64,000 bases of DNA, taken from contig JACCGJ010018272.1 of NCBI GenBank assembly GCA_013407085.1, positions 62,001-126,000 on the forward strand. Direction: 5' to 3'. The notes under the pieces are model-generated. The model did no database searches. It was not told the origin of the DNA and saw only the letters and a program-made list of their open reading frames with translations. The stretch is from Atriophallophorus winterbourni (lineage: Eukaryota > Platyhelminthes > Trematoda > Plagiorchiida > Microphallidae). Below, piece by piece: positions 26,832 through 57,664 of this stretch; the stretch's first letter is position 1; each line of letters starts with the position of its first letter. The position numbers and the translations under genes were made by a program.

Positions 26832-26870
26832 TCATGCTTGCTTAAGCGGGATGCGTTTGAGCTGTCTCAC

Positions 26871-27112
26871 GTGTAGTATGTGTGCACACCAATCCACGAA
26901 GAAGGTTATGAGCCCAAGACTCAGGCCGATGGTAATGAACACCGAAAAAACGTTGAGCAGATTTTGTATAGCCGGAATGGTTAATTTTAATATCAAGTTG
27001 TACGTTTCGTGATCCAGACCACTCTGCTCGTAAATGTCCACATTTCGTTCCGGTGATATCCATTCTGTCCCCGTAGAATCGGAGAGTATAAGGCGGATTA
27101 CATGCTGTTGAA
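26871..27112 (-). CDS. Exon 15: FN3 end, stalk and transmembrane segment
   Basis: Acceptor GTGAATTTACTTAG; 242 bases to a GTGAGA donor at 26,865-26,870, phase 1 in and 0 out. It reads QQHVIRLILSDSTGTEW, then a stalk and the hydrophobic AIQNLLNVFSVFITIGLSLG with LITFFV, followed by DWCAHILH. If the donor is not used, the frame runs 12 more codons to a stop at 26,832-26,834 and gives a very short cytoplasmic tail. An acceptor eight bases further on (TTCAACAG) would break the frame, so the first AG was chosen. Confidence 0.82.
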
Positions 27113-28736
27113 CTAAGTAAATTCACAAATAAAATGATTAAGATGGTCATCATTTATCATGTGCATAATTTGCGATGTTGAATAATACTCATCGACTTTT
27201 ATATTCTCAAACTTTAGAGTGTTAAACATTTCTGCATATAAATTCGACTATCAGTTTAACAAGTTTGCAGCAGTGAATGTTTAAATAAAAATATAAGTCA
27301 GCTTTCGAACAGCATTCAATTGACCAGAAGTAAATATTGTTTTATTAATAAATGGTATCAATCTCGATATTTGAAGTTTACTCATAGCTGTGCAGATATT
27401 ATTTTTAAATCAGAACGTTGAGTTTTGACAGCGCAATCATCCACTCTGCTAAATTGATATTCGCAAACGTCATGTAAGCTAGCCAAATTAACCAGGTTCC
27501 ATTATTTCCATATACACTAATTGTCAACTCCATGAGATCGAAATAAGTCGTAATAGAGGCAGAGTGTATCATGATATCGAAGTCCTCAAAGAATCCTACA
27601 ATAGAATGAACCCGGTCAAATGTTTACCAATATATACCTAAATGTTCTTTCGCAATTTTAACAAGGATTTTCTTTTCTTTGAAGATGTGAACTTCTAGAT
27701 GTGGAAAAATTCTGCAGACGTTGTCTAATTATATGAGCGAAGTAATCAACCTGAATCGTCGGTCGGCAGCAAGCAATCCGTCTTTAAATTTGTCAGGCGA
27801 AAAATATGGCACTGTCCTCTGACCGAGTACTGCCTATTGCCGTGAACGCTGTGGGTTGGAGTGTTCCGAACGAATTAGACAATTAAGTCATTCCAAATGC
27901 TGTCGAGTATGAAAACCTCATGGGCTTATGATGTACATAAATGATCGATATCTAAGAAGGAGGTCACAAAACAAACTTTTTAAAGTTTGGAAGAACTAGC
28001 TCTTGAACACTCAATATGGAGGCACTGTGTGACGCGTCACATGCAAGTTGGAAAACGGTAATTACTGCTCTTGGCAGGGGACCGTAGATCACTCTGATGT
28101 GCGATATAGGTTTCTTCGTTATCACCAAAGACAGTTTTACGACGCGTATATTTCAGTGTATTATTTTGCGTATTAAAACGAATTCAAATGAAGACACATG
28201 AATAATCACAAACATCTTCCATTTGTATCAAAAGGATTTTTGTTGTATGCGTATAAAACATTGTTAAACATTGTTGAAAATGTTCTTCTCTACGCCATGA
28301 ACAAATTATTTTTTCTTTCGTCGGGCTAAGTCGGTGCTTTGCACGATCCGTTGGTCTTACGAAAGGATCGTACTTCGTTGCCCACCAAGTAGCTGCACAT
28401 TCAGGAACATCGACCAGACCGTAATATTACCACTATACTCCTGGATATGATAAATAAAGACAACCAATCGCCCTACCTGACAAGTGAGCGTACCAGTGCC
28501 CGCTAAGAACACACGGTAATTGCACTGGCCAACCATAGTATTACTGTGCTAATAATATTGTTTTCTCAAACGCCATTAGATTGGCCAACGTTTTATGACA
28601 CACGCAATCTGTGTGAGATTTAATCAAACACGTTTAATCCTGTGGATAATCCTAACTGGCTAAAAACCTTCCTTATTGTTGAGATTTGTTAATGAAGAAT
28701 ATATTCTATTCTAATCAATTCTCCGCAACAACTTAC
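27113..28736. other. Intron 14, no recognised content
   Basis: AT-rich intron of 1.6 kb. No clear element fragment, exon or RNA gene was seen. A short stretch near 28,490-28,550 resembles one near 40,860-40,900, suggesting a shared unnamed repeat. Confidence 0.45.
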
Positions 28737-28994
28737 ATTTATAATCCACTTCGAACGAGATGCAGTGAGTGGCAGATTTATTGTCGATTACCCGCCATGG
28801 TTTGGTGTCATCTTGCCTTGTTTCCACTTGGTATTGCATGGTCGATTGCGGTAGATGAGGCACCTGCCCATTCATCATCGGTGGTTCGCCTTGCTGTAGT
28901 CTGTCCCACAAAACAACATTTTCCGCCAAACAAACATTGAAAAAATGAAGGTTGGTCCGCGTTGGAATGATAACAAACGGGCTGTCGTGCGACA
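28737..28994 (-). CDS. Exon 14: membrane-proximal FN3 (fifth-type)
   Basis: Acceptor TCATCTTGTAG, donor GTAAGT; 258 bases, phase 1 in and out. It reads SHDSPFVIIPTRTNLHFF, VVLWDRLQQ, TMQYQVETRQDDTKPW and ends FEVDYK. This gives the front strands of an FN3 whose end (FQQHVIRLILSD...) is in exon 15. By position it corresponds to FN3-5 of L1-family proteins. It has no partner in the duplicated modules. Confidence 0.78.
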
Positions 28995-29749
28995 CTACAA
29001 GATGATGCACAATAGAGAAAAAGTATTTTTATTTCAATATATATATAACACATGTTTTATAGCGTCTGCTCCATCTTTAAAGACAAAATGTCCGCTATGA
29101 CTATATTTATGATAATATTGTTGAATTAAAATACATGCAAATGAGCCTTTTGTGTTCATGATCATGTAATAATCCCTATCTACATGATTGTGCGCTCACA
29201 TGATTGAACAGGTTGGTGGGACCAACGTTGTCGAACAGTGACATACAAGCGCAACTTTTAGTTGAATTAACTTCTGACATTTCAGCAGATGATTGGTTGA
29301 AATTTCTAGCGCTTCGTGTGATAAAACTGTAAATATTTCTGGGCAACGTTAGATAGAAGAAAACCTCCGCAAGTGCTTTTAAACCTTTCAGATTCACCTG
29401 CTGTAATTCACACAGCACATTTCCGTTTAACAACAAAAATAAACAAAATATTAATTCATATGATATCAAAATAATGAAACTAGTCTCGTACGTGGAACAC
29501 GCTTTGCTTGTACGGTACATCTAGCTGTCAAATTACCTACGATTGGCATCACTGACGTGGAACACCCAACTTAGCAAAATCTAGTATTGATAGACCGAAA
29601 GTGATTTGGGGGAGTTAAGTGAGAATTGAATGAGAGCTAAATTTTCAAGGAAAATTGAAACGATTTGTCTGGTTGATGATGCATTCACTTGATGGAAGTA
29701 ATACAACTGCAAGATCTCAGTTACTCTTTTAATTCATTTAGTTCCTTTT

Positions 29750-30040
29750 ATACATTCAAGATTCAAGTGTTTATGTCATAAAAACTCATAGCTCTACAAC
29801 ACCATAAGATTTACGTTTGTGGACAAAAATGTGAGACAACAATTGTTGACAATGAAAGATCGACAGTTTTTGTAGTATAATTAATGTCATGTATTGTCTC
29901 GGTATGATGGATAAATAATCACCCTGTATGGGTTCCCAAATATTTTTTTCCCATTTTCGTGAAAATCGATTAATCAATAGCCAGTAGATCATACAAGTGC
30001 CTGATTGAAACCAGTAGTCAACAGGACTAGCCATCATAAC
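29750..30040 (-). mobile_element. CR1 3' tail, 5'-truncated (intron 13)
   Basis: The reverse complement matches the 3' untranslated end of the intact CR1: TGGTGTTGTA, then a final AATCTTGAATG-like repeat. Only the last 200-300 bases of the element are present, the usual result of 5' truncation on insertion. Confidence 0.65.
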
Positions 30041-30090
30041 ACATAAAGTTCATCGATAAAAAGGTCGTACTACTCGATTGCCAAATTTAC

Positions 30091-30285
30091 CTGTTGGGAC
30101 TTCTGTTGTTTCAAAACGTATTGAATTTGTGTAGAACGTTTCAGCATCGCTGTGAACCCACAAGGACATGTAATACTTAGTGTTGCTGCGTAATCCGGTG
30201 ATCCATGCTTTGTTGTCACTGGTGGGATGAAAAATGAATCTTTGTGTGTTGAATTCATACGTGTTGAAGCTAACCAGTTTGTCGA
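30091..30285 (-). CDS. Exon 13: second half of second FN3-4 (module 2)
   Basis: Acceptor CCCCGTTTTACAG, donor GTAAAT; 195 bases, phase 1 in and out. It reads DKLVSFNTYEF, WITGLRSNTKYYMSLWVHSD (late FN3 strands) and ends FETTEVPT. Counterpart: exon 7. A CR1 3' tail sits about 50 bases beyond its donor. Confidence 0.88.
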
Positions 30286-30539
30286 CTGTAAAACGGGGGA
30301 ATACAATCAGATTCACGAACCAATGAAAATTATGATTCAAGAATTTATGGACACAAAAAGCGCATAGCTTCAGAATTACCATATTATAGCCATTATTCGT
30401 TCATCGAAAATGAAAAATAATAAATGTGTAACGTAAAGTATAGTTCAGGTGAATACCTGCGAAAAGTCAATACGCAGGGGTCGTTAGATCGTTATGCAAA
30501 AAATAAGCGTCCACATTTCGAATGAAAATTTCGACCCTA

Positions 30540-33420
30540 GCAGATATGGAAATAGTTTCGGGATATCATTCCAAATGAAACAAACACGTACAGAATAAAA
30601 AAATATTGGCGACCTCTGATACAGCAGAGGGGAATTTGTAATGTCACTGAGTGGCTACTTGTATGTTATGATTCACGATATTCGAATAAATGTTTTAAAG
30701 GATGATGTGAGGTATATAATATCTTGTATGTCAGTATCACATCAATCCAAAGGCTGCTTTGAAAGGGAGTAGGGCGTCTCATATTTGCAATCGTTTCTTG
30801 AACATTAGTTTCCAGAAAAACTTACGAGTTTGGTTTCACGATGGTATATTTTTTAAGCAATAATATATCCTTTTCTAACCAAAAAGTCCGAACTTGTGAT
30901 ACTAGCTCCATGTTTAGAATTGAGTAGGCTTTCGTGATGGTTGGCAACGTTCCAGGCCAGAAGGTTTTGAAAATCTGTCGCAGCATACCTAGAAGCTTGG
31001 AATCACGCTTTTTGATGACCTTATATTTCTAGCTGTTCTTTAGGCTGTCGCATACCCAGACTCCAAGATCACTTTCCAACTCGATCCCGCTTAAAATCGT
31101 TTACCCATAAGTGATATTGGCACTTGAATGGCTCACCAATTTGCAACAGCTGGCATTTTTAGAAATTGAATCACAACTAATTCCCTAGCGACTATTCTTG
31201 CAGAGCTGTACACTGTCCGCAGTTGATTTTATCCGTGTCTAAGTTTTAATATCATCACCAAAGAGAATCACCTCACATAGGAGCGTCCCTGGTAGGTCGA
31301 TTTTGTAAACCAAGAAAATTGCTGGCCTGAGCAAGGAAAATTGCGGTACGCTTCCAAAGGCATCGTTAACACGTGATTGCACCCCGTTGATTTGAACATT
31401 CGCCTTGCGTATAGTTATGTATTTTTCGAACCAAACGAGTAGCTGTCCACCGATACCCAAGTACTTCAGCGTTTGTAGATGTCGAAGGTGATTAACATGG
31501 TTATGAGCTTTAGATATATACAGATAGCAAGTGTGGATGCTACTTCCTTCGTCATCCGCTTAGGTCCAGTCGTTTAACACCGTCAACAAGTTTTTGAAAC
31601 GTAAGCGAAATTTACGAAACTGCGCTACAGATTGCATATTTTGTGTTTCCGAATTATAATCTATTTTTCCGTCATTATGCGCTTTAGACCTTTGGATATC
31701 ACAGAAAGCAAGGTGACAAAACGTAGTTTGCAGGAACTCAACGTCCACTACGCTTGTATATATGTTACATTACCCTTGCTTCTACTCTGTTGGCGCCACA
31801 CCTTTGGATCGGACAGCATCCGCCACGCTATTTGAAAAAAATGTAATCTTAAATTGGATTAAGAATTTCCTTGATAGTATGGCGAACAAGCTATTCTGTA
31901 TATGTATTTGGTCACAAAATGTTTAGGAACGATATTCTCGGCAATAAATGACCATGTTTACGACCGTGCTCTTTTCTTTCATAAACCGTTGTAGCTCCTG
32001 TATTTTTTTAAGCTCGAGCAGAATACTACTACTTGATGATGCTTGATCCCTAACATTTGGTGTTCTTTGTCTTTCCCGCCAAGTTACGTTAGCATATATA
32101 CCGTGGTGTGAGCCACTTCGTCCTCTGTTCAACTCCAAGTTCACTAGGACATTCTCCATGTCCTTTTCGTTGGCAAAAGTGATCCTAAGCAAACGTGGAT
32201 TGTTTGGATTCGGGGACGTCAGGTAACGTGCGAGCCGAGTTACCGATATCGGTGTATATCATCCAAGCCAATACGATTGCCAAAACCTTACCAATTCTCA
32301 AGGTCATTGTTTGCCTTGCTTGACTCAGTAATAAAGTCTTTCAGTGCATTATAGATTCTTTGGGATCCTTATGACGTAAGACAGTTTTGCTCACGACGTC
32401 CACTTGTGCGCGAAGTTCAGGTGTCACTGTCCCGTCGAACGGTTACCTGATTTAGTTACCATGTTAGAAAATGTTCGCAAGTTACTATGTGACGCATGCA
32501 CTACGGGCACTTTGGTAGTAACCTCAGGATCTGTGATCAAATGACGTTTTTTCATCAGTTCAGTCAATTGAGGAATTCCCGATTCTAGTATATTTGAACG
32601 CATTTCAATTTCATTGTCAGCAGTGTATGCCTCAAAGTATGTCGGTGTCTGTCTGGCCTTTCATGCGTGGCAGACGTTACAAACAACGGAACTAATATCT
32701 CGTTTAATAATCGATAAAAAACCGGCGTTAGCGATTTGTCGCATTTTGCATGCACTTTTGACAAGCAAGCGTTACACGTGACAGACCTCGCCTTCGGACT
32801 AATTGCCTTTGGCGAACCATACACATGCAGCCCGATGCGCTTTGTTTTGTTTTCGGGGTCATCCATTTTTGGTTGTGTGCAGCACTGTTCATAGGTGTGT
32901 ACATAAGCAGTAGTTCTGTCGAGCGATCGAAGATGAATATCGTGAGCCAACTCAGAATTGAATCCGGCCTATATGCTTTGGCAGTTGATCGTACGATGTT
33001 GAAAAATATAACTAGCCGGCGAACAATGATTAGATGTTTCCAATGGCGTTAATCCGTTTGAGGGCATGAAGAATAGTAACAGCATTGCACGTGCATAGTC
33101 GGAATAAGAAAAACGGGCAATCCGAATTTTCTTGTATTATCGAATACCACTACGAAAGTGGGATATGCAGAATGCTGAGTCCGAGGAAATTGAAAATGCT
33201 TTAATATATATTCTTACGTGTAAGTTTAAGAACAGTATATTCTGATAATCAGCAGCTCAAAATTATGAGACCGCACGGTGCTATGCGGCACTTATTAGTG
33301 CCATTAGTACGGAACAATTTAGATGTAAACGTGCTACAAGTTGGTAGTTGGTTTTGCTCGTTTTAGCAATCTAAGCTAAGGGCTTTAATAAGTGATTCAC
33401 TGTCCTTCTCAACGAAAATC
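30540..33420 (-). mobile_element. CR1-like copy, degraded (intron 12)
   Basis: On the minus strand, a 5' leader (about 33,300-32,960) precedes an ORF1 start with zinc-finger cysteines (VTCNACLSKVHAKCDKSL, near 32,750). An RRM-like piece lies at 32,192-31,923 (LRITFANEKDMENVLVNLEL). RT remains lie at 31,460-31,239 (LGIGGQLLVWFEKY, ILFGDDIK), and C-terminal/3' parts run to about 30,540. Most of the endonuclease and RT is deleted. The same 3' section recurs at 58,870-59,350. It has the same orientation as the host gene. Confidence 0.7.
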
Positions 33421-33624
33421 GACAGAAGGTAACGTAGAGCGAATTGTTCAAAAAATGCAGATGAACTTCTCGTCGGTTGTCACGGTCATTTTATTGACAA
33501 GAATTTGCGTCTGTTCATAAATTGCATTCTGTGAGCTTGTGTGGTTAAATTGATTTTTGAAAAGTGTGTTTACACAAATAAAGCTATAGATAATATGGCG
33601 ACAAACAAAACAAAGCACAGTCAC

Positions 33625-33770
33625 CTTCGTATAGTTCGACGTGAAAGGCAACTTCTCGGTGCAAATTTGGCTTTGCTGTCTGCCATTGAATGATGACATA
33701 ATCAGAACTCAGTTCCACCAAGTCAAACGTAAATTCATTCGGAGTCCTTGTTACTTCAAACGTGGCGACA
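33625..33770 (-). CDS. Exon 12: first half of second FN3-4 (module 2)
   Basis: Acceptor CAACTTATTTTTAG, donor GTGACT; 146 bases, phase 2 in and 1 out. It reads VATFEVTRTPNEFTF, SDYVIIQWQTAKPN and VAFHVELYE, with the FN3 core tryptophan. It was required by codon phase between exons 11 and 13 and was found by its splice sites. Counterpart: exon 6. Confidence 0.87.
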
Positions 33771-35478: not shown

Positions 35479-35693
35479 CTGTCATCTCCGGCGAACTGCA
35501 TATTCAAAACACTTGCAGTGATCCGGATACCTTGCGCTTCCGGAAGGTCCGTCAATATGGCGTAATAGTTTGCGTCATATTTTTTGAAGAAACCGCCAAT
35601 TTTGCTCGATTGAGCCGACGTCAGTTGAGACAACGCTGTCTCTCGTCTTTTCAGGACACCACTTTGCTTCGATAATTTAGCGATCTCAAAATC
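35479..35693 (-). CDS. Exon 11: end of second FN3-3 (module 2)
   Basis: Acceptor CATACATTTGCTGCAG, donor GTAGGC; 215 bases, phase 0 in and 2 out. It starts DFEIAKLSKQSG and ends LPEAQGIRITASVLNMQFAG. Counterpart: exon 5, with the same phases and ending. Confidence 0.88.
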
Positions 35694-35775
35694 CTGCAGC
35701 AAATGTATGAAAATCCACGTGAATTGCATGACATTGATTTAAAAAGAAATATTTTATTTGTAACTGATAGTTTAC

Positions 35776-36042
35776 CTGCCATGTATCGATACCGTCACAG
35801 CTGGTTTCCGGGTTTGAAACCTTGCAATATTTCACGCGGAATCCCCAAAATAACCCATTGATCCCACTTTGAAAACTGCTGGCATCAGGTTCGCCCCAGT
35901 TAATTACAATCTGATTGGCCGTTTTACTGACCACACGTGGTTGGTTGTTCAGCACGGTGGGCTTACTTTCTACTGAGTAACCGCGAAACCTCAAGGGCAA
36001 ACCGCTAGTCAAACCAAATAGATTGACGACATTCAATTTCAC
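35776..36042 (-). CDS. Exon 10: second FN3-2 end, FN3-3 start (module 2)
   Basis: Acceptor TTCTTTTTCATCTAAG, donor GTAAAC; 267 bases, phase 0 in and out. It holds VNLFGLTSG, RGYSVESKP, IVINWGEPD and NGLFWGFRVKYC. It aligns along its full 89 codons with exon 4 (NL.G, GYS.E..P, NG.F.GFR...C). The intron after it is only 82 bases. Confidence 0.92.
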
Positions 36043-38518: not shown

Positions 38519-38722
38519 CTCATATTCACGAAACGCTTGCACTGCGCCGAACGTTGACAACTCACGACAGTTCGAAAATTGTGGAAGGGGAATGATCGCA
38601 TGGTTCACATTCGATTCACATTCCATCTTGCCGACTAGCTGGGTGGAAGAGGCGCAGTTCAAACAATGAAGCTCGATCATATATTTCAATCCCGGACCGT
38701 TGTGTTGATAAGCCTCAAGCAT
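38519..38722 (-). CDS. Exon 9: middle of second FN3-2 (module 2)
   Basis: Acceptor GATTTATCTATTTAAG, donor GTTAGT; 204 bases, phase 0 in and out. It reads MLEAYQHNGPGLKYMIELHC, with the NGPGLKY turn typical of L1-family FN3-2, and ends VQAFREYE. Counterpart: exon 3. Confidence 0.9.
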
Positions 38723-38767
38723 CTTAAATAGATAAATCAGAAATCATATTATTAATGATTTGGAAAA

Positions 38768-38827
38768 ATGTATACTTTGATACATACATATAAACATATA
38801 TACATATATATACATATATATATAAAC

Positions 38828-38865
<38 letters not shown>

Positions 38866-38880
38866 TCGAAGATTCAATCA
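38768..38880. repeat. TA/TACATA simple repeat
   Basis: Alternating TATATACATA sequence of about 110 bases at the edge of the large microsatellite, followed by a short ATCA run (about 38,879-38,930). Confidence 0.9.
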
Positions 38881-38936
38881 ATTAATCAATCAATCAATCA
38901 ATCAAACAATAAATCAATCAACTAATTACTCAATAA

Positions 38937-39577
<641 letters not shown>

Positions 39578-39657: not shown

Positions 39658-40202
39658 TTTCCAATCCAAAGTTAATTGACCTGTTTCCAATCCATATAAA
39701 CTACCTCCGGCTGGAACTTGAAACGCTGGTCGTGGTGGAACGTAACAAAATTCAGTGGATTTTGGATCCAACGGCGGGACAACCACACTGTGATCCGAGA
39801 GGCCATGGATCGTCCTTGTACGAATACGGAAATGGTACGCCAAATCGGCAAACAATGGTATGGCAACTTTAATGATGCGACTACCCGCTGGGGTCAATCG
39901 GTCTTCTAAAACGATAAATTGATATGCGAATGCTGGCCAATCATCTTTCTTGGATGCTTCAATTGCTTTGTTGCGAATCCTTGACAGCCGTTTGTTAACC
40001 CATATATTGTTCAGTTCCTGAACCGTTACCTCACGATTGGTTGACAATAGCTGATTGTGGTCTTCTCTGTCGTATCCAGCAATCCATTCAATTTGTGTAC
40101 TGTTTGCACTGTACGATCCATTGACGTTATTCCATTGAAGGAGAGCCATCGGAAGAGATCCGTTGTTGACCAGGCACCTCACTCTTATATTCTCATATAA
40201 AA
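39658..40202 (-). CDS. Exon 8: second FN3-1 and start of second FN3-2 (module 2)
   Basis: Acceptor CCATTACTTTCAG, donor GTAAGT; 545 bases, phase 1 in and 0 out. It reads VLYENIRVRCLVNNGSLP, LLQWNNVNG, a long insert, ADLAYHFRIRTRTIHGLS, a CYVPP link, and ends GQLTLDWK. Exon 2 has the same phases, insert, YxFRxRxR motif and C-containing link. Its 3' intron is filled by the ATCT microsatellite. Confidence 0.9.
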
Positions 40203-40479
40203 CTGAAAGTAATGGTATATAAATAATATTCTTCTTATAATTCTAGCAGTCATTTTCTGTTGCACAACTATATGCTGTTTGCGATACTCATAGCTATAAA
40301 GCTTCGGGTAAGTTTGATGTAATTATTATGATGCATGTTATGCTTTTTTCATCAAAGTACTAACGATTTTTGGTATTCTTTTTTAAGCTAATGTATAGAT
40401 ATTTGACGTTTTATGCGATTGAGCAAGCATTCCGTTTTATGTGATTCAAAAGAATGAAGTAGAAAAAGAAAAATTAGAA

Positions 40480-40570
40480 AGAAAAGAAGAAGAAATTGGC
40501 TTCATTCATGTACACGAATGTTCAGCAATAATATTAATTCAACCACACACAAATATTTTCCCAAATATAA
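40480..40570 (-). repeat. Short dispersed repeat with TTCTTC tail, second copy (intron 7)
   Basis: The reverse complement matches 25,130-25,230, including the CATTCGTGTACA core and the TTCTTCTTC run. It is likely the 3' end of a LINE family. Confidence 0.45.
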
Positions 40571-41099
40571 GTTGCTTGAACAATGTGAGGGTAAGGATTT
40601 AATGTGGACATTCACACTGTCAGTCGCCTCCTTATATGAAGAATAACCAAATAGCGGGCAATTTATGGGACGAACGAATTCCTTAATTTTTAAGTTCTCG
40701 AATAAGAGACGATATATTAACTTCGTGTAGATGAGAATGATTTGCAAGCCATGAGGACCTCATGAAGTGGGTGTGCATTATCAGGCGAAATGACACTGTT
40801 CAATCCGTCACATTCACGGAAGTATCGCGATAATCGTAGTCAGAGCAATTAAAGGCATACCAGTGTCCGGCAAGCATAATAATACTAGCACTGCACTTCA
40901 GATTTTGATTAAAAATCTGCTCGCTTCCATTGCTGCTTGGTTGTGCTACTTTTAATAAGCTGTTTCGCACGGCAAAGCAAACGCCATACAGTCAAGGCTC
41001 ATCAATGCTCGTTCCATTCCAAAACGTGTTATCTTTTTCTGTTTGCATACCCGTGTCTGGTAGCCTCGTCTCTTGCAGAGCATTTCACCTCATTGTTAA

Positions 41100-41475
41100 T
41101 CGCAAGCGATTGTCTTAGGTCTCTGATGTTCGAGACGGCGTCATGAAATCAATCAAGCATGGCTTCCCATTTTCATGTCTGATCTGTGTGTGTTAGAAAT
41201 TCTTTTCACGGGTATGGAAATATAAAGTATGCTTTCCGGCAATTTTCTAATCCACATGCACACTCAATGTGAACCGCGTTCAAGAAACTACGAGCGCCGC
41301 ATGCCCGAAATAAACTGGTTTTAAGGCTCAAGTCAGCCGCCTTCGACCCTTGTGTTGTTAGTAGGAGCATTTATGCCGGCCAAACAGGATCGCGCGTGCA
41401 GGCTTAAAGCTTGACTTATTAGTCAGAGGCTATATAAGACACACGTTATTAGAGCATTTTTGAATTGAAATCTTA
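41100..41475 (+). repeat. GC-richer dispersed repeat, shortened copy (intron 7)
   Basis: TTCGAGACGGCGTCATGAAA near 41,129 matches TTCGAGACGTCGTCATGAAA near 60,912. AGTCAGCCGCCTTCG through GTCAGAGGCTATATAAG to GGAGCATTTTTG matches 61,625-61,757. The middle part, present at 61 kb, is missing here. No coding potential recognised. Confidence 0.7.
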
Positions 41476-41774
41476 TGCCTATGTAATTATTTACGTCCTA
41501 ATTTACATACATAATATATTAGACGCGGTGGAACCAGTATTAAGTTGATCATTGAAACGAATTTACGTTTATGAATAAGTTTGCTAAAACATCTGGCCAT
41601 TCGGCGAAAAACATATACAAAACCAATAATCTATGTTGTTCTCATATTTGCTCTGATATACTGATTTCGGTTAATTGCACTCATGCGGTACGCTTGTTAG
41701 ACACTTTTCCCGGGACCATTGAAAAATGAGAACTTTTGAAAATCAATAAACACAGCAATGAGTCGTTTGCTTAC

Positions 41775-41987
41775 CTTTCGGAGGATCAGGAAATTTGAAG
41801 TTAAAACTGGACCCTCTTGGACTTTCGGATCCATGCATTGACCACACTGATACCGAATAATATGACTTTCGATCCAAGTTGTTGAATGTATGCGTTAGAC
41901 GCTTGGAATGCGGGTCCGCATCAACAGGCGCTCGTCGTGTTGTCGACTCGGTGGTTTTGTTCACTGTGTGAATGGAATTACCGTTCA
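41775..41987 (-). CDS. Exon 7: second half of FN3-4 (module 1)
   Basis: Acceptor CATATAATTACAAG, donor GTAAGC; 213 bases, phase 1 in and out. It reads FNNLDRKSYYSVSVWSMHGS, the late FN3 strands, and ends PDPPK. Because the module enters and leaves at phase 1, exon 7 joins exon 8 in frame. Counterpart: exon 13. Confidence 0.88.
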
Positions 41988-46983: not shown

Positions 46984-47114
46984 CATTGTTGAGAACCACC
47001 TCATATCGTTCGGCTTCCTTTACTTGGTCCCAACTGATATCAACAGTCGAATCGTCCTTTAGTGTGTAACGTAGATTTGGAAGCGTAGCCTTTGTTTTTG
47101 CGTACAACGCATTA
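46984..47114 (-). CDS. Exon 6: first half of FN3-4 (module 1)
   Basis: Acceptor ACATTTCCAG, donor GTTAGT; 131 bases, phase 2 in and 1 out. It reads NALYAKTKATLPNLRY, then STVDISWDQVKEAERYEVVL, with the FN3 core tryptophan. The serine codon is completed across the exon 5 junction. Counterpart: exon 12. Confidence 0.88.
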
Positions 47115-47784: not shown

Positions 47785-47987
47785 CTCTCCGCTCCCCCGT
47801 TTCGAATGTTTAACACCGCCACCGTCAAACGAATCCACGTTTCCGCAGGCAAATTGCCGACTTCCGCCGAGAAAAACCCGTTTGCTCCATGTATTCGTAT
47901 CAAGTTCTCTTGTTTACAATTGTCATCTGCCATGCCCCTTCTTAGACATTCCCAATAATTCGTTGGTATTTCCCGCGCAATAAAATC
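47785..47987 (-). CDS. Exon 5: end of FN3-3 (module 1)
   Basis: Acceptor ATATTTTAG, donor GTGCGT; 203 bases, phase 0 in and 2 out. It starts DFIAREIPTNYWEC and ends LPAETWIRLTVAVLNIRNGG, the last strands of an FN3. Exon 11 shares the DF start and the LP...IR.T..VLN ending. Its GC content is somewhat higher than that of its surroundings, as expected for coding sequence. Confidence 0.88.
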
Positions 47988-48268: not shown

Positions 48269-48535
48269 CTGAGTTTTCAAACTTCCAGAACAAGGCATTC
48301 CGTATCCTTTTGCAACACACCACGAAATTCTAAATCCACGAAAGTAGCCATTCGAATCTTGATCGATTCGGTCCCAATTCGATATATGCCATAGGACTTT
48401 GATCATGTTCGATGTCCACGAATCAACGCGAAATCCTTCCACAGTTGAACTTGGAAAGCCTTCCCCTGAATATCCGGAGACCCGTGAACCAAACTTTCGG
48501 CTGCGTCCATACAAATTAGTCGGCATGATGTTTAC
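48269..48535 (-). CDS. Exon 4: FN3-2 end, FN3-3 start (module 1)
   Basis: Acceptor TTAACCTCACAG, donor GTAATT; 267 bases, phase 0 in and out. It holds NLYGRS, the family link GYSGEGFPS, and FN3-3 with VLWHISNW and NGYFRGFRISWC. Exon 10 is exactly the same length with aligned motifs. The intron before it (6.3 kb) carries the nearly intact CR1. Confidence 0.92.
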
Positions 48536-49312
48536 CTGTGAGGTTAATGATAAATCAATGATGATACGGGGTTAGTAATAAAAACTTTCCCATATTTCCT
48601 GAGCTGATGTGAGTTCAAAGAAATCAAATCGACTGGCAGTAATGAGAGCTCGTAGCAAGTCATAGTTCACAGTGGTATATGTTTGTTAAGTATTCTTTAC
48701 TGACACGTATTAATATATGTAATCAAATGTAAATACAACCTGATCAATCAATCTGAGTAAAGCTGTATAATAACCAGAATCGATCATGCGTTCTTCGTTT
48801 GAACTGCGGGTATACTGACGTTAACGGACGGACGCATAATTTCGTGCTCTGATACTCTTGAACATTACTCGTCACTCGTCGATCCTATTCGGATTATTCT
48901 TACACCATTCGATTTCGCTCGAAGAGATCTATTGGACTTAATCAGCTTAAGTGTCCTGTGATCAATATTTCGGAAGTTACTATTTTCCACATCACCGTGG
49001 AAATTGTGTGCGCGAGCAAAATTTGTTGTCGCTGTTTTGACTTGGTCGGGACCAATATCGTTCGGAAGATCTTCTTCAACTGAACTCAACAAGCCGTGCA
49101 TCATTTGTGCAAGATCAAATCTACGATCACCACGACTGTTTTAATTGGTAATTTGCATCCAATACATTGCGATACGTTCCCACGCGAACCTCGCAAATAT
49201 CATCTCTCAACCGTGAACCGATCGATACGCGCCTAGGTGTTTTAGTGGAAGCTATCAACACCCCCATTCAACGATCAGACAACCTTGGCCAGACAACCTC
49301 AACAGCTATCGG

Positions 49313-50607
49313 ATGTCTAGACCTACGAAAACTACGTGTCAAATTTGCAGAAAGGGGGTAAGTGTGAAATCGAAAGTAGTCATGTGTTATATGTGCTCTA
49401 ATAAGATCCACACTAATTGCGATAAACTTTTGACTAACGAGGCAGTAGTCGTTATTAATAATCCTGAAATTCCTAGTGTCTGTTATGTATGCAGCGTCTG
49501 TAGAACAAAGTCGTTAAACGGCACCGGGACCAATGCATCACAATCAGGAGACCTGGAAAATCGCGTCAAATACTTGGAGAACATTTCCCAAAAATTTGAG
49601 GAAACATTGAAGTTGATAGTAAATGCCCACATAACTCATTAGTAAGTGAAATCAACCCGAACCCAATGCTACATCCCGTAACTCCACAAGTTACTCCGTT
49701 ACTTGAGGAGAATTTGCGGGAAGCTAAACAGCTGAGTAATGCTAACGCAAGCTGTGACTCAGATGTTAATCAGATTAGAAAGTCGAAGGGGCGTGTACTG
49801 ACTATCCACCAGCAGAATTCCTCTACTTCAAAAACTAATGATGAAATGAAAAGAACTTTGATGAATCTCAGTGTAATTTGCACCAATGTGCCGGAGACAT
49901 CAGGGACACTTTTCTCGAGTAGAAGAACTCACGACATTGAACAATGGTACCAGCTGTGTTCAATGATGGATATGAGCTCGATACTGCCCGATTCAATAAC
50001 CCGCCTAAGTCGGCACCCCAATTCTCCTCATCTCGATGAACCACGTTTACTGAGAATAACTTTCAAAAGCCAAAAAGAGATGGAATACGTTCTGTTAAAC
50101 TCTTATTTGCTACGTACATTCTCACAGACTAAATGTCGCATACTTGCAGATATTCCGTGGTGGGAGAGGAAAGGTAACTTGAACAATGGGAAAAAATGTG
50201 ACCAACGCAGTGTTGTTCTTCTTGGTGTTCCCGAACACACTGACACTGCTTCAGGAAATGAAATACAGCACCACGATTACAAACAGTGGCTCTATGTTGC
50301 CAACAGCATCGGGGCTCACGAGTCAGTGGTGGTGGACACTTTTAGAATACCTCGTTCACCAAACTATAAAGGTGACGGGCCCAAACCTCTGAAAGTAACA
50401 TTTTTAACGAAAGGTATGATGGAATCAGTTAAGGCTAACTGGAAAGCAAACTATAGGAATCTCCCAAAGGATGTCAGAATGAGTGATCACAGACTTTCTA
50501 CGCCTTCTAATGAACCACGGCTTCCACAATCAGACGAGACTCCGATTAGAAACACTGTGACAATCCCAAAAAACGACCGATGTCCGACTCTCGAAGGGTC
50601 GGACTAA
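49313..50607 (+). pseudogene. CR1 ORF1: zinc finger and RRM-like protein, one frameshift
   Basis: ORF1 starts MSRPTKTTCQICRKGVS. A PHD-like cysteine/histidine cluster covers residues 9-64 (CQIC...CYMCSNKIHTNC...CYVCSVC), followed by a probable coiled coil (LENRVKYLENISQKFEETL). The frame then shifts by one base near 49,620-49,645; without it, ITH-stop would read NSLVSEINPNP. Downstream are two RRM-like segments (LRITFKSQKEMEYVLL..., LKVTFLTKGMMESVKANWKA). The protein would bind element RNA (family inference). It ends with TAA at 50,605-50,607. Confidence 0.82.
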
Positions 50608-53438
50608 TAGACGAGCTTTTAGCCCCATCTCTGTATACGAAAACCACAATCAATTGCCTATATACAAACGCACAATGCCTGTTAAACAAACTAACTGAAC
50701 TGAAGGATCTCTGCAATCAGCACTCACTCGACGTCATAGCAATAACTGAGACATGGTTCCAACCTCACGTGAGCGATCGCGAGCTCTCTATTCCAAACAT
50801 GACCCTGTTTCGGAGAGACCGCTTAAAAACAGGTGGTAGAGTAGCTGTGTACCACCATGACCGTTTATATTGTACGGTAGTTACAGATACTGAACTCGAT
50901 CTGGAAGACAGTTTATGGTGCAACTTGAAGCTCGAATCAGGCGAAAGTTGCATCGTTGGTGTAGTTTACTGTTCACCATCATCATTGGATGCGTATAACG
51001 AAAACCTCTTGAAAGCAATGCAGTACGCCGGAAAACAGCGCAATTCGCAATTGCTGATTATGGGAGACTTCAATCTGCCTCAACTATATAACCGAGTAGA
51101 TCACCAACCCCTATCCCTAGACTACAAATTTCGCGAACTGTTCGATTACATCCCCTTGTATAATCATGTTTTCGATTATACACGACAACGAAATTTGCAA
51201 CAGACCTCTGTTCTAGACCTAGTCTTAACGTCCGAAGCAAATGCCGTTGAAGATGTTCTGTATTACCCTCCGCTGGGTCGAAGTGACCACCTCATTCTGC
51301 TATTTCAATACGTGTGCAAAGCCAGTAGAATTGTAAAGCAAACAAAACAAAATAGAAAAGTGGATTACATTGGTTTGATGAAACCAATGGTAGCTTTCGA
51401 TGAACATAATATAAATTTCACTGATCCGGACTCGCATTGCACAACCCTGACAGCTTACATAATCAACATGATACATTTCAATTCAAAAAATGTCCAGAAA
51501 CATAATAGCAAAGAACCACAATTCAGAATTCGCAGTAGGACTAGAAAATGTTTGACAAAGCGAAATTTGGCATGGGCTATTCACAGGGTGTCCAGAACTG
51601 ATTCGACGTGGGCAAACTTTCGCGAATTGCGGAATCAGGTCACAAATCTCATCCGAGAGGACAAACAATATCACCAGCTTCAGCTGGCGGTAAGAATGCA
51701 GCGAAATCCCAAACTGCTTTATCGAACTGTTAACAACACTACGAAGCTGAAACCCGGTGTTTTTCCGATCATGACAGATAACGGACTAACTGATTCTGTT
51801 CTGGAAACCGCTAACGCTCTAGCCAGTTTTTATTCACGAGTTTTCACCCCCAAGGATAAATTACAACCATCAGAATTGTCAGCAACAATTGTGCCGGAGA
51901 CGATATGTGATATATGCATCAGTTCGGAAATAGTGCAGCACCACCTACGCAAGTTGAATATCAACAAGTCCCCGGGAGCTGACGGAATCACACCTGCAAT
52001 CCTAAAGTTATGCGGCAGTCAACTGTGCGAAGCACTTTGTGATTTATTTAATCACTCCTTGAGGGAGGGTGTTGTACCTAATGACTGGAAGAGAGGAATC
52101 ATAACACCCATCTACAAAGGTGGAACTCGTTCTGACCCAGCAAATTACCGCCCTGTTACACTCCTTCCAGTGATCTCAAAAATTATGGAGCGAATTGTGT
52201 GCGAAAGAATTGTGAGTCATCTCGAAGCCCAAAACTTGTTGTCCAGAGAGCAACATGGATTTAGAAAGTCTCGTTCTTGCTTGACTAACCTACTGGAGAC
52301 ACTGGATGACTGGACGCAGGCAGTGGATAATGGTGGTTGCGTGCATGCGTGTTACTTGGACATATCGAAGGCGTTTGATCGCGTGGACCATTCTATACTG
52401 CTGCGCAAGTTGCACGATGTTGGTATTAATGGGTGCCTTCTTGTCTGGCTGAGAAGTTACCTTCTTGATCGCAAAGCAACTGTACGTATCGATGGTGTGA
52501 TGTCTGGGGAAATCGAGGCCACTAGCGGTGTCCCACAAGGTTCGGTACTTGGTCCGGTTCTCTTTTTGGTCTACATCAACGACCTTCCGAAACTTGTCAC
52601 AGCCAAAATGGTTCTCTTTGCGGATGATGTTAAAATTTGGATGCGAATCAAGTCAAGCGTGGACTGTTTGCGCTTACAAAGCGATTTGGATCTATTGAAC
52701 AGCTGGTCGGAGAGAAATAAACTTCCATTCAACTTCCGAAAGTGTAAAATGTTGCAAATAGGCAAAGATTTTCCATTCTCATACAACCTTGGACCAAATC
52801 AACTGGAATGGACAACCAAAGAAAAAGACCTCGGCATATGGATTAGTGGAAGTCTGAAGTATAGCATGCAATTTGAAGCAGTGTACAACCGAGCTAGCCA
52901 CATGCTAGGTATGCTTCAGCGTATTTTCGGACATTTTTTCCGGGAATCATTCTCCATGCTCATAAATACGTATATTAACCCGGTGATGGATTACTCAGTG
53001 CAAGCTTGGGCACCGTGGCTACAAAAGGACATCAAGCTGCTCGAGAGGATCTATCACAGAGCAACTAAAATGGTTGGCTGCCTCCGCAACCTACCAAATG
53101 AGAATCGACTTGAGCAGATTAATTTGGATACACTGCTTCGCAGAAGGGTTCGATTCGATCTAATACTAACCTACAAAATAATGAACTCCAAGGCGCACAC
53201 TCTGAGGCATCTATTTCGCCTCCGGTCAAGCCATGCCACACGTACTCACCCATTTGAATTTGATATTCCACATTCCCACCGGAACTGCCGTCGGTTCTTC
53301 TATTCGGTGCGCGTTTGTTTCTTATGGAACTCCCTACCGTCAGATGTTGTCCAATCATCTAGTGAAAGGATTTTCAGGAACAAATTGGATATATTTATGG
53401 GTAGTAATTCCACCCTACATCCCGTATATATAACATGA
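50580..53438 (+). CDS. CR1 ORF2: endonuclease-reverse transcriptase, intact 952 residues
   Basis: Enzyme that nicks target DNA and copies element RNA in the nucleus. Endonuclease: LYTNAQ at 28-33, AITETW at 54-59, GDFNLP at 162-167 and RSDH at 234-237. RT: SPGADGITPAIL, ANYRPVTLLPVISKIME near 520, LDISKAFDRVDHS near 592, VPQGSVLGPVLF, LFADDVKIW near 680 (catalytic FADD) and NKLPFNFRKCKML. A thumb-like C-terminal region ends HPVYIT. ATG at 50,580 matches the start position in related copies and lies inside the end of ORF1. No stop or frameshift interrupts it. Confidence 0.93.
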   Translation: MSDSRRVGLIDELLAPSLYTKTTINCLYTNAQCLLNKLTELKDLCNQHSLDVIAITETWFQPHVSDRELSIPNMTLFRRDRLKTGGRVAVYHHDRLYCTVVTDTELDLEDSLWCNLKLESGESCIVGVVYCSPSSLDAYNENLLKAMQYAGKQRNSQLLIMGDFNLPQLYNRVDHQPLSLDYKFRELFDYIPLYNHVFDYTRQRNLQQTSVLDLVLTSEANAVEDVLYYPPLGRSDHLILLFQYVCKASRIVKQTKQNRKVDYIGLMKPMVAFDEHNINFTDPDSHCTTLTAYIINMIHFNSKNVQKHNSKEPQFRIRSRTRKCLTKRNLAWAIHRVSRTDSTWANFRELRNQVTNLIREDKQYHQLQLAVRMQRNPKLLYRTVNNTTKLKPGVFPIMTDNGLTDSVLETANALASFYSRVFTPKDKLQPSELSATIVPETICDICISSEIVQHHLRKLNINKSPGADGITPAILKLCGSQLCEALCDLFNHSLREGVVPNDWKRGIITPIYKGGTRSDPANYRPVTLLPVISKIMERIVCERIVSHLEAQNLLSREQHGFRKSRSCLTNLLETLDDWTQAVDNGGCVHACYLDISKAFDRVDHSILLRKLHDVGINGCLLVWLRSYLLDRKATVRIDGVMSGEIEATSGVPQGSVLGPVLFLVYINDLPKLVTAKMVLFADDVKIWMRIKSSVDCLRLQSDLDLLNSWSERNKLPFNFRKCKMLQIGKDFPFSYNLGPNQLEWTTKEKDLGIWISGSLKYSMQFEAVYNRASHMLGMLQRIFGHFFRESFSMLINTYINPVMDYSVQAWAPWLQKDIKLLERIYHRATKMVGCLRNLPNENRLEQINLDTLLRRRVRFDLILTYKIMNSKAHTLRHLFRLRSSHATRTHPFEFDIPHSHRNCRRFFYSVRVCFLWNSLPSDVVQSSSERIFRNKLDIFMGSNSTLHPVYIT
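50582..50604 (+). promoter_or_regulatory. Stem-loop between ORF2 start and ORF1 stop
   Basis: GTCCGAC pairs with GTCGGAC around a 9-base loop that can extend by a C-G and a G-T pair. It lies exactly between the ORF2 ATG (50,580-50,582) and the ORF1 TAA (50,605-50,607). It may help translation of ORF2 by reinitiation or stop-start coupling (inference). Confidence 0.65.
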
Positions 53439-53799
53439 TTTTTTTTCCAAACGAATATTGTTTTACCCATTATACCGCCACAATACATGGTATTTTTTTG
53501 CAACTACAAAACTGTCGATCTTCCTCAAGACTCAATCTTTTTTTGTTTACATATTTATTGTCCTTATACGAATATCCTGTGGTGTTGTACAGCTACGAGC
53601 TTTTTTATACCATAAATTCTTGAATCTTGAATCTTGAGTATGAGGTACAGAGTGGGTGAAGTTTGTCTGATCAAATCACGTTTGTTGTGGTTTGCGGTTG
53701 TAAATACGGGGCAAATCATTATTTCCTGAAAATAGCTTTTAAGGGAATTGGTTCTAGTGATGTGTGTATCAACAGTCGTAAGAGAAAAATCACCGAGCA

Positions 53800-54560
53800 T
53801 TAGCGATTGTGCGAATATACGTTAACTTTTAAGATTCGATAAAATAGGTTCAGCGTTCAGATTTAAGAGGAAAACAAAAATTAAAATGGAATCATGCGAT
53901 ACCCTTCGGCAGTAAATTGCACGATGTTGAAAATAAAACCAGTCGAAAAATAAAATCTTTCCGAAGACGTTTATCACTTTTGAGGGCTTGCGAATTATAC
54001 CACACCGTGCGGGCGCATTAATTTGAGCTGCCGATTTACAGAATATACAGTTCTAACATTTACACGTACATGGATATATTATACCTCAATAGAATCCCCG
54101 TGAAATACCACTTGATATACCACTGTTGTCGCCTTATACGATAATACAAGCAAATTCGGATTTCTCGTGATGTTCCCATATTGGCTCTAGACGTGCTATC
54201 CTGATATTACTCTGCAAGTCGTCAAATAGATTATCGTCAGCGGAAAGATCTTATTCTTCGCCATCGACTGGTTATATTTTCAACATCGTGCGATCAACAA
54301 TAGAAAGATTCAATTCTGATTTTGCTCTTATTCGTGATCACCGCATTTTGTCGCGCTCACCATATTCATCATCGCTCGCTCGACAGAACCACTGCTTCTG
54401 CACATACCACTCAACAGTGCTGCTCATAACACTGACAGGATGACCCCGAAAAGAGAACAAAACGCATGCGGCTATACGATAAAGTTTTGACAAAGGCGGT
54501 AAGTGCTAAGACGTGGTCTGCCACGTGTTACGTTTGTTTGTTGTAAGTACGTGCGAGATG
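53800..54560 (+). mobile_element. CR1 5'-end fragment (intron 3)
   Basis: The segment from about 53,980 to 54,560 matches the reverse complement of 33,300-32,750: the 5' leader and the ORF1 beginning of another CR1 copy (CAGTGCTGC... then ATGACCCCGAAAA). It keeps the 5' end and lacks the rest, the opposite of the usual 5' truncation. It begins soon after the 3' end of the nearly intact CR1. Confidence 0.6.
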
Positions 54561-54831
54561 CGACACATCGCTGACCTTGAAATTGGTATTAGCCGTTATG
54601 TATCCAATTAATGAATTAGAGTGACAATGTGTTTAGTAAGTTTCAACATAATTCTTTCACCCGTTTTTAAGTTGACGTACACATGGTTATGTGAGAGATT
54701 ATTCCTACAAGCATCGAGCGATTTCAACCAATCAATCAATAACGAGATGAGAAAACAAAGGTTAACCGGATGGGATTTAGTGCTATCTGACTTAAAAAAT
54801 CAAATCTTCTCGCTCGCATAAAAACACTCAC

Positions 54832-55017
54832 TTCATATTCCTTAAACAGTTCGATTGGTATTTTTTCGTTATCCTCGTTTGTAATGTGGTCCTCAAATAC
54901 GAGTTTGTGTAAGTGTGTCCTTATTTCCCCAATTGGCTTAGTGCCGACACAATTTTTGCAGGACATCCAAACAGTGTAATAGAAATGCGGTGCACCGTGC
55001 AGAGCAGTTGGGACTGG
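54832..55017 (-). CDS. Exon 3: middle of FN3-2 (module 1)
   Basis: Acceptor TTGTTTATTTCAG, donor GTGAGT; 186 bases, phase 0 in and out. It reads PVPTALHGAPHFYYTVWMSC and ends IELFKEYE. Joined to exon 2 this gives WEPVP...GAPHFYY, the L1-family form of FN3-2. Counterpart: exon 9, which ends FREYE. Confidence 0.9.
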
Positions 55018-55314
55018 CTGAAATAAACAAACTGATACAGTGCAAACGATAAATCAGGATTTAGGGCCAACTTATCGATTTCAACCATTACAGACACAAT
55101 CATTATATGCCTGATAGAATTATTGAACTACTATTAATCAGACGTTCATTCAAAAATATTTAGCTTTCTTCCCATCAATAAGCAGTAATAATTGAACGAG
55201 ATTATGCAGTTCAGCTTGTGTATCAATTTGGGATACGCTTGGTACGAACACTCTGTTCAATCACTTGTTCAACACACAAGTGGATGAAAGAAAACAAAGG
55301 GTTTAAAACAAAAA

Positions 55315-55415
55315 TCCATATTTGTATGCATTACCATCACGCACACACCCCACGACCGGTTTCATGCTGTTTACACTCATCGGGTATGAACCGTATTATT
55401 GGGATCCGCATGCAT
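55315..55415 (-). ncRNA. Hammerhead-like repeat in intron 2
   Basis: Same unit as at 48,035-48,130, also sense to the host gene. The core reads CCGATGA (one change from CTGATGA, 55,377-55,383), GAAA is at 55,360-55,363, and ACCGGT then C (55,354-55,360) gives a proper GUC triplet. Stem II can form as GUGU/GCAU with two wobbles. The core change probably weakens or abolishes activity. Confidence 0.4.
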
Positions 55416-55480
55416 TGTAACATTAGAAGAAAGGTTAAACAAGGTGTAAGCAATTATTAAAGATTGAATTGTTAACCTAC

Positions 55481-56007
55481 CTCCCATTCAATTACCAAAC
55501 TGTATGGCTTCGTTCCGTAGAGTTTGGGATTCATTGGACCCACGCGTGGTATTTGTATTTTCGTACAGCATACGTTCTCGGTATTTGTCAAGCCATTTGT
55601 CGCAATTTCATTCGGTGCAGAATATCCAAATGTATTCCTCGCACGCACCCTAAACCTGTAGCACGTGAGTGGATTGAGTGCTATTTTCGCGGAATACTTT
55701 GGCATTCCGCCTGGGATAACATTTGGTAATAACGTGTAATTTTGATCGATCATCGCAGACCACTCCATTGAATTCTGCACCTGTAAGGATAACGATCCCA
55801 CATAGGTGTGAAACCATTGCGTGAAGTCTTCGCCCGAATTGTGTTGGCGAGAGAAAAACTCTTCGTCGACAGCATGTACCTCTTCCAGTTGGTGTGTGAG
55901 TAACTCATCGAAGCTGTAACGTGCAGACCAGGTTAGCACAGCGAAAAACACATTGTACTCATGTGGTCTGCAATCGAGTTGAAAGTTGCTCGGAGCCTCA
56001 GGTACAT
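55481..56007 (-). CDS. Exon 2: FN3-1 and start of FN3-2 (module 1)
   Basis: Acceptor GATTCATTACAG, donor GTAGGT; 527 bases, phase 1 in and 0 out. FN3-1 opens DVPEAPSNFQLDC and ends with TCYRFRVRARNTFGYS. It carries an unusual insert of several tens of residues (SARYSFDELLTH...). After a CCTKIQ link, FN3-2 starts and the exon ends at SLVIEWE. Exon 8 is its counterpart in module 2, and both have the long FN3-1 insert. Confidence 0.9.
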
Positions 56008-56449
56008 CTGTAATGAATCATGAGAGCCGTGATATTCTTGGGGATGGTGTAACGTGAATAAATATGTGTAACACTTATCACGTCCGAAATAATGCATGTT
56101 CACATTGGATGAGTAATACAAAACTAACTGGTGTCAACGCAACGAAGTTAATCTGTTCTTGCTGCATTTGTCAATATCACACTACTATCATACTCTTAAG
56201 CATTTATTAGAACTCGAGGAATTGACTCAAACACGCAAACTTTCAAAGGGTTCAATCATTTCACATTCTCGATTGGATAACCACCGTAATTTTCATCGGT
56301 TAAAATTTGTCTCACTTGGAACGCCTCGTTCTAATTCATACGTCCTGAATCGGCTTTAGTTTTCTGATTTTGGTTTGTGTAAGAACTTTGCTTACCGCCC
56401 ATTTATTTATTCGAATTTTGATATCTGATCAATGATTGAATAGCAATAT

Positions 56450-57075
56450 ATCGGGTTAGCAAACGGCAGTGAAACCTGGAACACCCACGCAAGACACGAA
56501 CGAAAGCTGAATGCTTTCCATCTACGAAGCATCCGTTGTATCTCGAACATATCATTGATGGACAGATTGACTAACGCTGAAGTGCTTTCAAACGCTGGTC
56601 TACAGAGCATGTTCACCCTATTACGTCAGCGCCGATTGCGGTGGCTTGGTCATGTCTATAGAATGGAAAATGGTCGTATTCCGAGAGATCTACTCTATGG
56701 TGAGTAGCAATTAGGAAGTCGACCATTGGGAAGACCGCACTTGCGGTACAAAGATGCTTGCAAAAGAGATATAAAGGTCTTGATATTGAAGCTGAGAAGA
56801 ACTTGCTCTAGACCGCTCACTTTGTAGGCATTGTGTAAAGCGTCGTCTGCAAGTCGGGGAGGAGCAGAAACAGCTCTTGGCTGCTGAACGCAGATCACTC
56901 CGCCGGCGTGCAACTGATGCAATAAAACAGATTTCTGACTATCGTTGCAAGCACTGCGGGAGAGATTGTTCCTCACGAATCGGACTGTTTAGTCATTCAA
57001 AAAGCTGCAAAATATGAAATTCATGCGATTGTGTTGTACATCCATGGTCGACATCAACCGACGAGGCTAACAACA
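56450..57075 (+). pseudogene. LINE ORF2 C-terminal tail (intron 1)
   Basis: The plus strand reads GSETWNTHARHERKLNAFHL, LRQRRLRWLGHVYRMENGRI, a stop after LLYGE, LGRPHLRYKDACKRD, and then a broken zinc finger region. Same family as the tails at 5,446-5,960 and 60,418-60,840, with more of the upstream tail kept. A CR1 3' tail fragment in minus orientation follows near 57,355-57,425, next to exon 1. Confidence 0.75.
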
Positions 57076-57449
57076 ACAACAAACCATTCGAAAATAAATC
57101 CAATTTTGATTTTAAAGTTATACTTAACTAAGTTAGGTACGATCAACCTGAACAATCACACGTGCACATACACATGTCGATCTGTTTAAACCCACGGTCA
57201 TGAACGACTATACACGTTTGACCATCAGCATTAAACCGGTCGAATTATGTGTTTGTCGCAAACACATGCCTTGAGAATCTATCAAATAATTATCAAATGT
57301 TTCTTTTATTGCTCAGCTGCTTTGGTGTTATCGAAAAAAACGTGGTACTCATAGAGTCAAGATTACGAATTTATGATATCGAAGCTTATAGCCGTACAAC
57401 ACCATAGGATATTCGTATAAATAAAATTTTAAATGAATTTATCACGTAC

Positions 57450-57664
57450 CTGCAAACTTGACCAGAATCACGTCTGAGATTATTTCTTCGTTGTCCATGA
57501 AGGCTTTGCATTGGAATTGGCCAATGGCGTTTGTGTGATATTGCTTGGTGTACCATAAGAGGTAGTCGTTGTCTGAGTCGGTTGCATTTTCTTCTCTGCC
57601 TAGTAAGTTCACGTTGGTTGATTGGAACCAATCAACTTCGGTGCCGTTTATGAACCACTTGTAA
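57450..57664 (-). CDS. Exon 1 seen: C-terminal half of the last Ig domain
   Basis: Acceptor CTTCTCACTTCCAG, donor GTACGT; 215 bases, entering at phase 2 and leaving at phase 1. It encodes YKWFINGTEVDWF (Ig core tryptophan) and NAIGQFQCKAFMD (core cysteine), ending VILVKFA. The domain's first half must lie in an upstream exon that I did not find. Next exon: 55,481-56,007, whose first bases complete an aspartate codon. Confidence 0.88.

Follow-up and report, generated by a model that had tools for sequence, protein, structure and literature searches.

A probable old tandem duplication of a fibronectin type III block in a predicted L1/neuroglian-type gene of the trematode Atriophallophorus winterbourni

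Results

Gene model of the locus

The window analysed here is a stretch of 64,000 nucleotides from the trematode Atriophallophorus winterbourni (contig JACCGJ010018272.1, positions 62,001 to 126,000 of the forward strand). Its minus strand carries a predicted gene of 15 exons, running from position 57664 down to position 26832 of the window, which resembles the genes of L1/neuroglian-type cell adhesion molecules (CAMs) and contains two successive six-exon blocks coding for fibronectin type III (FN3) domains: exons 2-7 (block 1) and exons 8-13 (block 2). An initial annotation had proposed that the second block is a tandem duplicate of the first. The domains of block 1 are called FN3-1 to FN3-4, or FN1 to FN4 for short, with primes for block 2; Ig stands for immunoglobulin. 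The features of the gene are as follows.

Exon 1, 57450..57664, minus strand: second half of an Ig-like domain, recognised by eye from a W...G.FQC motif, ending in phase 1; supported by splice sites, open frame and codon score
Exon 2 (527 bases), 55481..56007, minus strand: FN3-1, about 45 residues longer than that of neuroglian, and start of FN3-2; phase 1-0
Exon 3 (186 bases), 54832..55017, minus strand: remainder of FN3-2; phase 0-0
Exon 4 (267 bases), 48269..48535, minus strand: end of FN3-2, GYSGEGFP boundary, start of FN3-3; phase 0-0
Exon 5 (203 bases), 47785..47987, minus strand: remainder of FN3-3; phase 0-2
Exon 6 (131 bases), 46984..47114, minus strand: first half of FN3-4; phase 2-1
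Exon 7 (213 bases), 41775..41987, minus strand: second half of FN3-4; phase 1-1
Intron between block 1 and block 2, 40203..41774, minus strand: 1572 bases
Exon 8 (545 bases), 39658..40202, minus strand: FN3-1′, similarly long, and start of FN3-2′; phase 1-0
Exon 9 (204 bases), 38519..38722, minus strand: remainder of FN3-2′; phase 0-0
Exon 10 (267 bases), 35776..36042, minus strand: FN3-2′/3′ boundary GYSVESKP; phase 0-0
Exon 11 (215 bases), 35479..35693, minus strand: remainder of FN3-3′; phase 0-2
Exon 12 (146 bases), 33625..33770, minus strand: first half of FN3-4′; phase 2-1
Exon 13 (195 bases), 30091..30285, minus strand: second half of FN3-4′; phase 1-1
Exon 14 (258 bases), 28737..28994, minus strand: probable first part of FN3-5; phase 1-1; supported by splice sites and codon score
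Exon 15, 26832..27112, minus strand: probable end of FN3-5, transmembrane segment, tail and stop codon (26834-26832); alternative donor after 26871

All phases of the model are compatible, with AG acceptors at its exons and GT donors at all but the last. The twelve block exon lengths and the repeated phase series of the initial annotation were borne out, each exon being an open frame between an AG acceptor and a GT donor in the phases given. Joined together, the 15 exons encode 1283 residues with an open 5′ end and no stop in the model frame. A leave-one-out codon test ranked this frame first in 15 of 15 exons, with the weakest scores for exon 15 (0.7, versus -7.9 and -23.2) and exon 7 (0.8, versus -11.3 and -12.1). 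An alternative frame of exon 15 was rejected, with a codon score of -7.9 against 0.7, an early stop and no hydrophobic stretch.

Two blocks with a common sequence and intron structure

Compared as proteins, exons 2-7 and exons 8-13 gave one colinear BLASTP alignment (103 bits, E 5e-28, 94 of 377 positions identical). Exon by exon, the similarity score z reached 10.0 for exons 2/8, 6.7 for 3/9, 15.2 for 4/10 and 6.6 for 5/11, versus at most 1.8 for non-counterpart pairs, and the proposed pairing had the top summed z among 720 pairings, mainly through exons 2-5 against 8-11. At the domain level z was about 7 for FN1/FN1′, 18 for FN2/FN2′ and 17 for FN3/FN3′, with non-counterpart pairs at 2.3 or below.

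The motifs listed in the initial annotation are present. FKEYE and FREYE end exons 3 and 9; exons 4 and 10 are both of 89 codons, with NLYG/NLFG, GYSGEGFP/GYSVESKP and NGYFRGFR/NGLFWGFR; exons 5 and 11 start with DF and carry IRLTVAVLN/IRITASVLN close to their ends. The long FN3-1 claimed for both copies was also recovered: counted to the same strand, it exceeds the neuroglian domain by about 45 residues in block 1, and its length in block 2 is similar. A tblastn search for a third copy of the block returned, besides the blocks themselves, a single 23-residue match (E 0.20, 62764-62832).

Exons 2-7 and 8-13 have the phase series 1-0, 0-0, 0-0, 0-2, 2-1, 1-1 in common. When the proteins alone were aligned with MAFFT, blind to the introns, four of the five internal boundaries shared both column and phase, to the nucleotide, and the fifth had equal phase eight columns apart in a gapped stretch. 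The binomial chance of at least four exact coincidences is about 6e-10, and three were reached in none of 2,000,000 random draws. The sequences show that the blocks share an origin over FN1-FN3, with the same order and the same intron positions and phases; the duplicated exon block, as an observation, is confirmed.

The phases also bear on how the exons could be joined. The junction of exons 7 and 8 is phase compatible, and joins of exon 1 to 8, 7 to 14 and 1 to 14 would all stay in frame, as every junction concerned is in phase 1. One gene with the blocks as alternative cassettes would exploit this freedom, a 1-8 or 7-14 join giving five FN3 domains and inclusion of both blocks giving nine; a single adhesion gene would then set two reaches from the membrane with interchangeable stalk units. 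We consider this improbable, as the skipping or keeping of six exons as a unit is unusual.

Predicted structures of exon 8 and exon 2, built from two-row alignments, had a mean predicted local distance difference test score (pLDDT) of 42 and 50, respectively, and were left unused, as was a PDB fold search with the better model (594 matches at E 10, led by receptor Ig folds, and none at E 0.001).

Affinity to L1-type proteins

Over FN1-FN3, block 1 matched PDB chains of contactin-4 (E 4.9e-9) and Drosophila neuroglian (E 5.1e-9). Block 2 alone gave a weak match to contactin-2 (E 4.4e-4) in the same register as block 1, and its five PDB matches up to E 10 were all contactin chains. A profile of the two blocks found 28 chains at E ≤1, and the 14 at E ≤0.001 were without exception contactin (one fusion construct), neuroglian or L1; the chains weaker than E 0.001 include titin, Robo3, DCC, an Eph receptor and a ribosomal protein. 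Both blocks match the neuroglian/contactin/L1 group in one register, each on its own. This FN1-FN3 similarity to L1-type CAMs is common to contactins too, and is weak for block 2 alone.

The FN2/FN3 boundary is more selective. A Gly before Tyr-Ser occurs in both blocks (GYSGEGFP in block 1, GYSVESKP in block 2) and in 2 of 2 L1-type chains (neuroglian and L1), versus 0 of the 5 contactin chains covering the boundary; the GYSGE-like sequence as an L1-type mark is drawn from these two L1-type and five contactin chains. A tree built from 9 rows and 188 columns, with few rows, partial chains and L1 filling 37% of the columns, unites the two blocks (support 98/95) and separates them, together with neuroglian and L1, from the contactins (98/96). 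By path, neuroglian and L1 are also the nearest to the blocks. Taken together, the matches in one register, the boundary and the tree support the assignment of both blocks to an L1/neuroglian-type gene, as the initial annotation had it.

The exclusively contactin matches of block 2 (5 of 5 chains up to E 10), together with the four FN3 domains of contactins, could instead point to an L1-type gene fused to a neighbouring contactin gene, with no duplication within the gene. Such a fusion is very unlikely: the blocks group together, a tree constrained to place block 2 among the contactins is worse by 13.4 log units (p value of the approximately unbiased test, p-AU, 0.031), and placing block 1 with neuroglian and L1 minus block 2 is rejected (p-AU 0.026). 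The distribution of the Gly before Tyr-Ser and the long FN3-1 in both blocks speak against it as well.

Age of the duplication

Protein identity between the blocks is 24% of aligned residues (120/497). At E 0.01, a DNA comparison of the two halves gave 13 matches, 9 of them in opposite orientation and all clear of the exons. These intronic matches are presumably interspersed repeats, several of them inside a LINE-like (long interspersed nuclear element) insertion in the third intron. One repeat pair (54003-54575 / 32727-33280), 70% identical and in opposite orientation, has its first member in a block 1 intron and its second in a block 2 intron. Consistent with the age proposed in the initial annotation, the duplication appears to be old, or else fast evolving.

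A doubled contig is excluded because of the roughly 24% protein identity and the lack of any exon DNA match between the blocks. The same observations make a pseudogene or an assembly artefact very unlikely, as do 15 exons free of stops with the best codon score in each; what could suggest one is that mobile-element frames are common in the window, where 7 of the 10 frames chosen for a Pfam scan match such families.

The intron between the blocks and the ends of the protein

The blocks are separated by a 1572-base intron. The same exon order would result from two adjacent genes, a full L1-type gene with an unrecognised 3′ end followed by a truncated paralogue running from near exon 8 to exons 14-15, if a tandem gene duplication had lost the Ig exons. 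In block 1 the Ig half is followed by a DVPEAP link, which block 2 lacks, and a hydrophobic open frame ending in basic residues (40501-40391) lies between the blocks. We nevertheless find two genes rather unlikely, since exons 7 and 8 are so close and compatible in phase and no FN3-like exon, including one like FN3-5, was recognised in the intron. Exon 7 read through its donor meets a stop after about nine residues, with no anchor, and strongly hydrophobic open frames are not in excess between the blocks (2/28 versus 31/336 in six other introns). A terminal exon hidden within this intron is possible.

At the amino-terminal side, the Ig content recognised within the window is half of one Ig-like domain, compared with six Ig domains in an L1-type CAM; inspection of the upstream open frames in the window by eye and codon score, with no profile search, revealed no further Ig exon. 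At the other end, a single strong hydrophobic segment stands out in the joined model, and it lies in exon 15 (hydropathy 2.36; the best before residue 1150 is 1.07), in agreement with the single transmembrane segment of L1-type CAMs, with modest codon support for the exon 15 frame. A basic tail follows, which is more like that of a transmembrane segment than the glycosylphosphatidylinositol (GPI) anchor of contactins. The stop comes about 13-20 residues past the segment, and the donor after 26871 could lead to further tail exons.

If all exons belong to one mRNA, the count of eight FN3 domains in two blocks plus one probable domain falls outside the three to five of L1-type CAMs, and the two four-domain blocks likewise depart from the four-FN3 layout of contactins.

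Other elements in the window

The LINE-like element (49200-53435, plus strand) is inserted between exons 3 and 4. Its 962-residue frame (50550-53435) contains an endonuclease and a reverse transcriptase (Pfam RVT_1, 1.9e-34) and is preceded by a 335-residue frame without a Pfam match. Immediately upstream of exon 9, a TA-rich simple repeat (38747-38881, minus strand) gives Ile-Tyr runs in all three frames.

Outside the gene, a Gypsy-like element (10387-14409, minus strand) carries a 1039-residue frame with reverse transcriptase, RNase H, an integrase zinc domain, DUF7041 and a weak aspartyl protease; a second, separate frame shows weak similarity to the integrase core. Frames at 143-757 and 2380-2724 (both minus strand) match Tc5/DDE_1 and MULE-type transposases, a reverse-transcriptase-like frame at 18010-18495 (minus strand) matches RVT_1 at 1.6e-6, below the gathering score, and a 356-residue frame at 19728-20795 (plus strand) is without a Pfam match. 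Rfam scans at the gathering threshold and tRNA scans gave no matches.

Discussion

We favour, with a probability of roughly 0.7, an ancient frame-neutral tandem duplication within an L1-type gene, with the predicted product FN3(1-4)-FN3(1′-4′)-FN3-TM (TM, transmembrane segment). Mechanistically, the block coding for FN3-1 to FN3-4 would have been duplicated in tandem long ago in an L1/neuroglian-type gene, with putative breakpoints in two phase-1 introns; the copy would have been frame-neutral because both breakpoints lay in introns of that phase. The second block would thereby have been inserted between FN3-4 and FN3-5. We infer a single mRNA with both blocks retained in the protein, FN4′ as part of the duplication and FN3-5 as a domain. 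The product would be a type I membrane protein with an Ig head raised on some nine FN3 domains (4+4+1), a stalk about twice the usual length.

Several observations weigh against this duplication, or against parts of it. Exons 6/12 (z 0.4) and 7/13 (z 1.1) have no significant similarity: exon 6 prefers exon 9 (z 1.5) and exon 14 (1.8), exon 7 prefers exon 12 (1.4), and the joined FN4 and FN4′ domains are not similar (z about 1). Because of this last value, the pairing of exons 6-7 with 12-13 rests on position and phase. It is additionally supported by Pfam, where each is the best fn3 stretch of its own block: as whole chains, the Ig half plus block 1 reach E 2.2e-8 and block 2 reaches 2e-5, with the strongest stretch in exons 6-7 and 12-13, respectively; taken alone, these two stretches fall below the gathering score (E 0.0014 and 0.0025), and the remaining FN3 pieces scanned singly leave a trace for FN1 only (0.12). 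The six-exon duplication of the initial annotation accordingly stands by sequence for four exons, 2-5 with 8-11, and probably includes two more by order and phase.

The other contrary points concern block 2, the intron between the blocks and the ends of the protein. The best single PDB stretch of block 2 alone has E 0.059, and its branch in the tree is very long (2.37). Within the intron, 26 residues at 40998-41075 form a brief codon-like stretch (score 6.7 against a threshold of 6.5); there are also the two hydrophobic frames among 28, one of them (40501-40391, minus strand) with a basic end. The Ig domain placed before the stalk by the initial annotation has its W...G.FQC motif in exon 1 but no Pfam or PDB match. 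Similarly, eight of the nine FN3 domains it counted are found in the two blocks, but the ninth (exons 14-15), a probable FN3-5 read by eye, has no Pfam match and a sole, marginal PDB match to an interleukin receptor (E 0.31). Two narrow patterns for a FIGQY-like ankyrin tail gave one GQYT match inside an intron (37732) and none below 27000; the ankyrin-binding tail may sit beyond the window or have diverged.

According to the available text of two papers (PMC2346466, PMC9633819), L1-type proteins combine six Ig domains with three to five FN3 domains, a range stated from leech and fly to vertebrates. At the level of titles and abstracts, among the matches listed in a partial library, no L1-type protein with more than five FN3 domains was found. 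Drosophila Neuroglian resembles the present protein in the FN1-FN2 sequence of block 1 (E 5.1e-9), in the AP.F.Y and GYSGE motifs and in the type I membrane layout that the available part of PMC2346466 states for the family. The family range of three to five FN3 domains in that source contrasts with the eight plus one probable here, and the long FN3-1 is a further difference. Unlike in Neuroglian, no ankyrin motif was found here with the two patterns.

Leech Tractin has an altered architecture too, in another way than here. It is also an invertebrate L1-type protein, but is counted within three to five FN3 domains in the available text (PMC2346466). Vertebrate L1, neurofascin, NrCAM and CHL1 share the GYSGE boundary (8afo) and the Ig-FN3-TM order. 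They differ in their three to five FN3 domains and in their cytoplasmic region, which is about 120 residues long and includes an ankyrin-binding sequence, as described in the available text of PMC9633819. Contactins are alike in the FN1-FN3 similarity of both blocks and in the four-FN3 unit, but the same part of that source gives them a GPI anchor and four FN3 domains (PMC9633819), and motif and tree put the blocks with L1-type proteins. Arthropod Dscam is likewise an adhesion gene with repeated exons, in the available text of PMC3364881. Its variable exon clusters undergo mutually exclusive splicing, whereas here a six-exon, four-domain block is repeated.

L1-type proteins adhere mainly through an Ig head carried on an FN3 stalk. 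A longer stalk would move this adhesive head away from the membrane and may add surface for cis contacts. A doubled FN3 block would show that a single frame-neutral event can lengthen such a stalk, and would make it possible to test, in a natural case, whether the length of the stalk sets the distance between adhering membranes.

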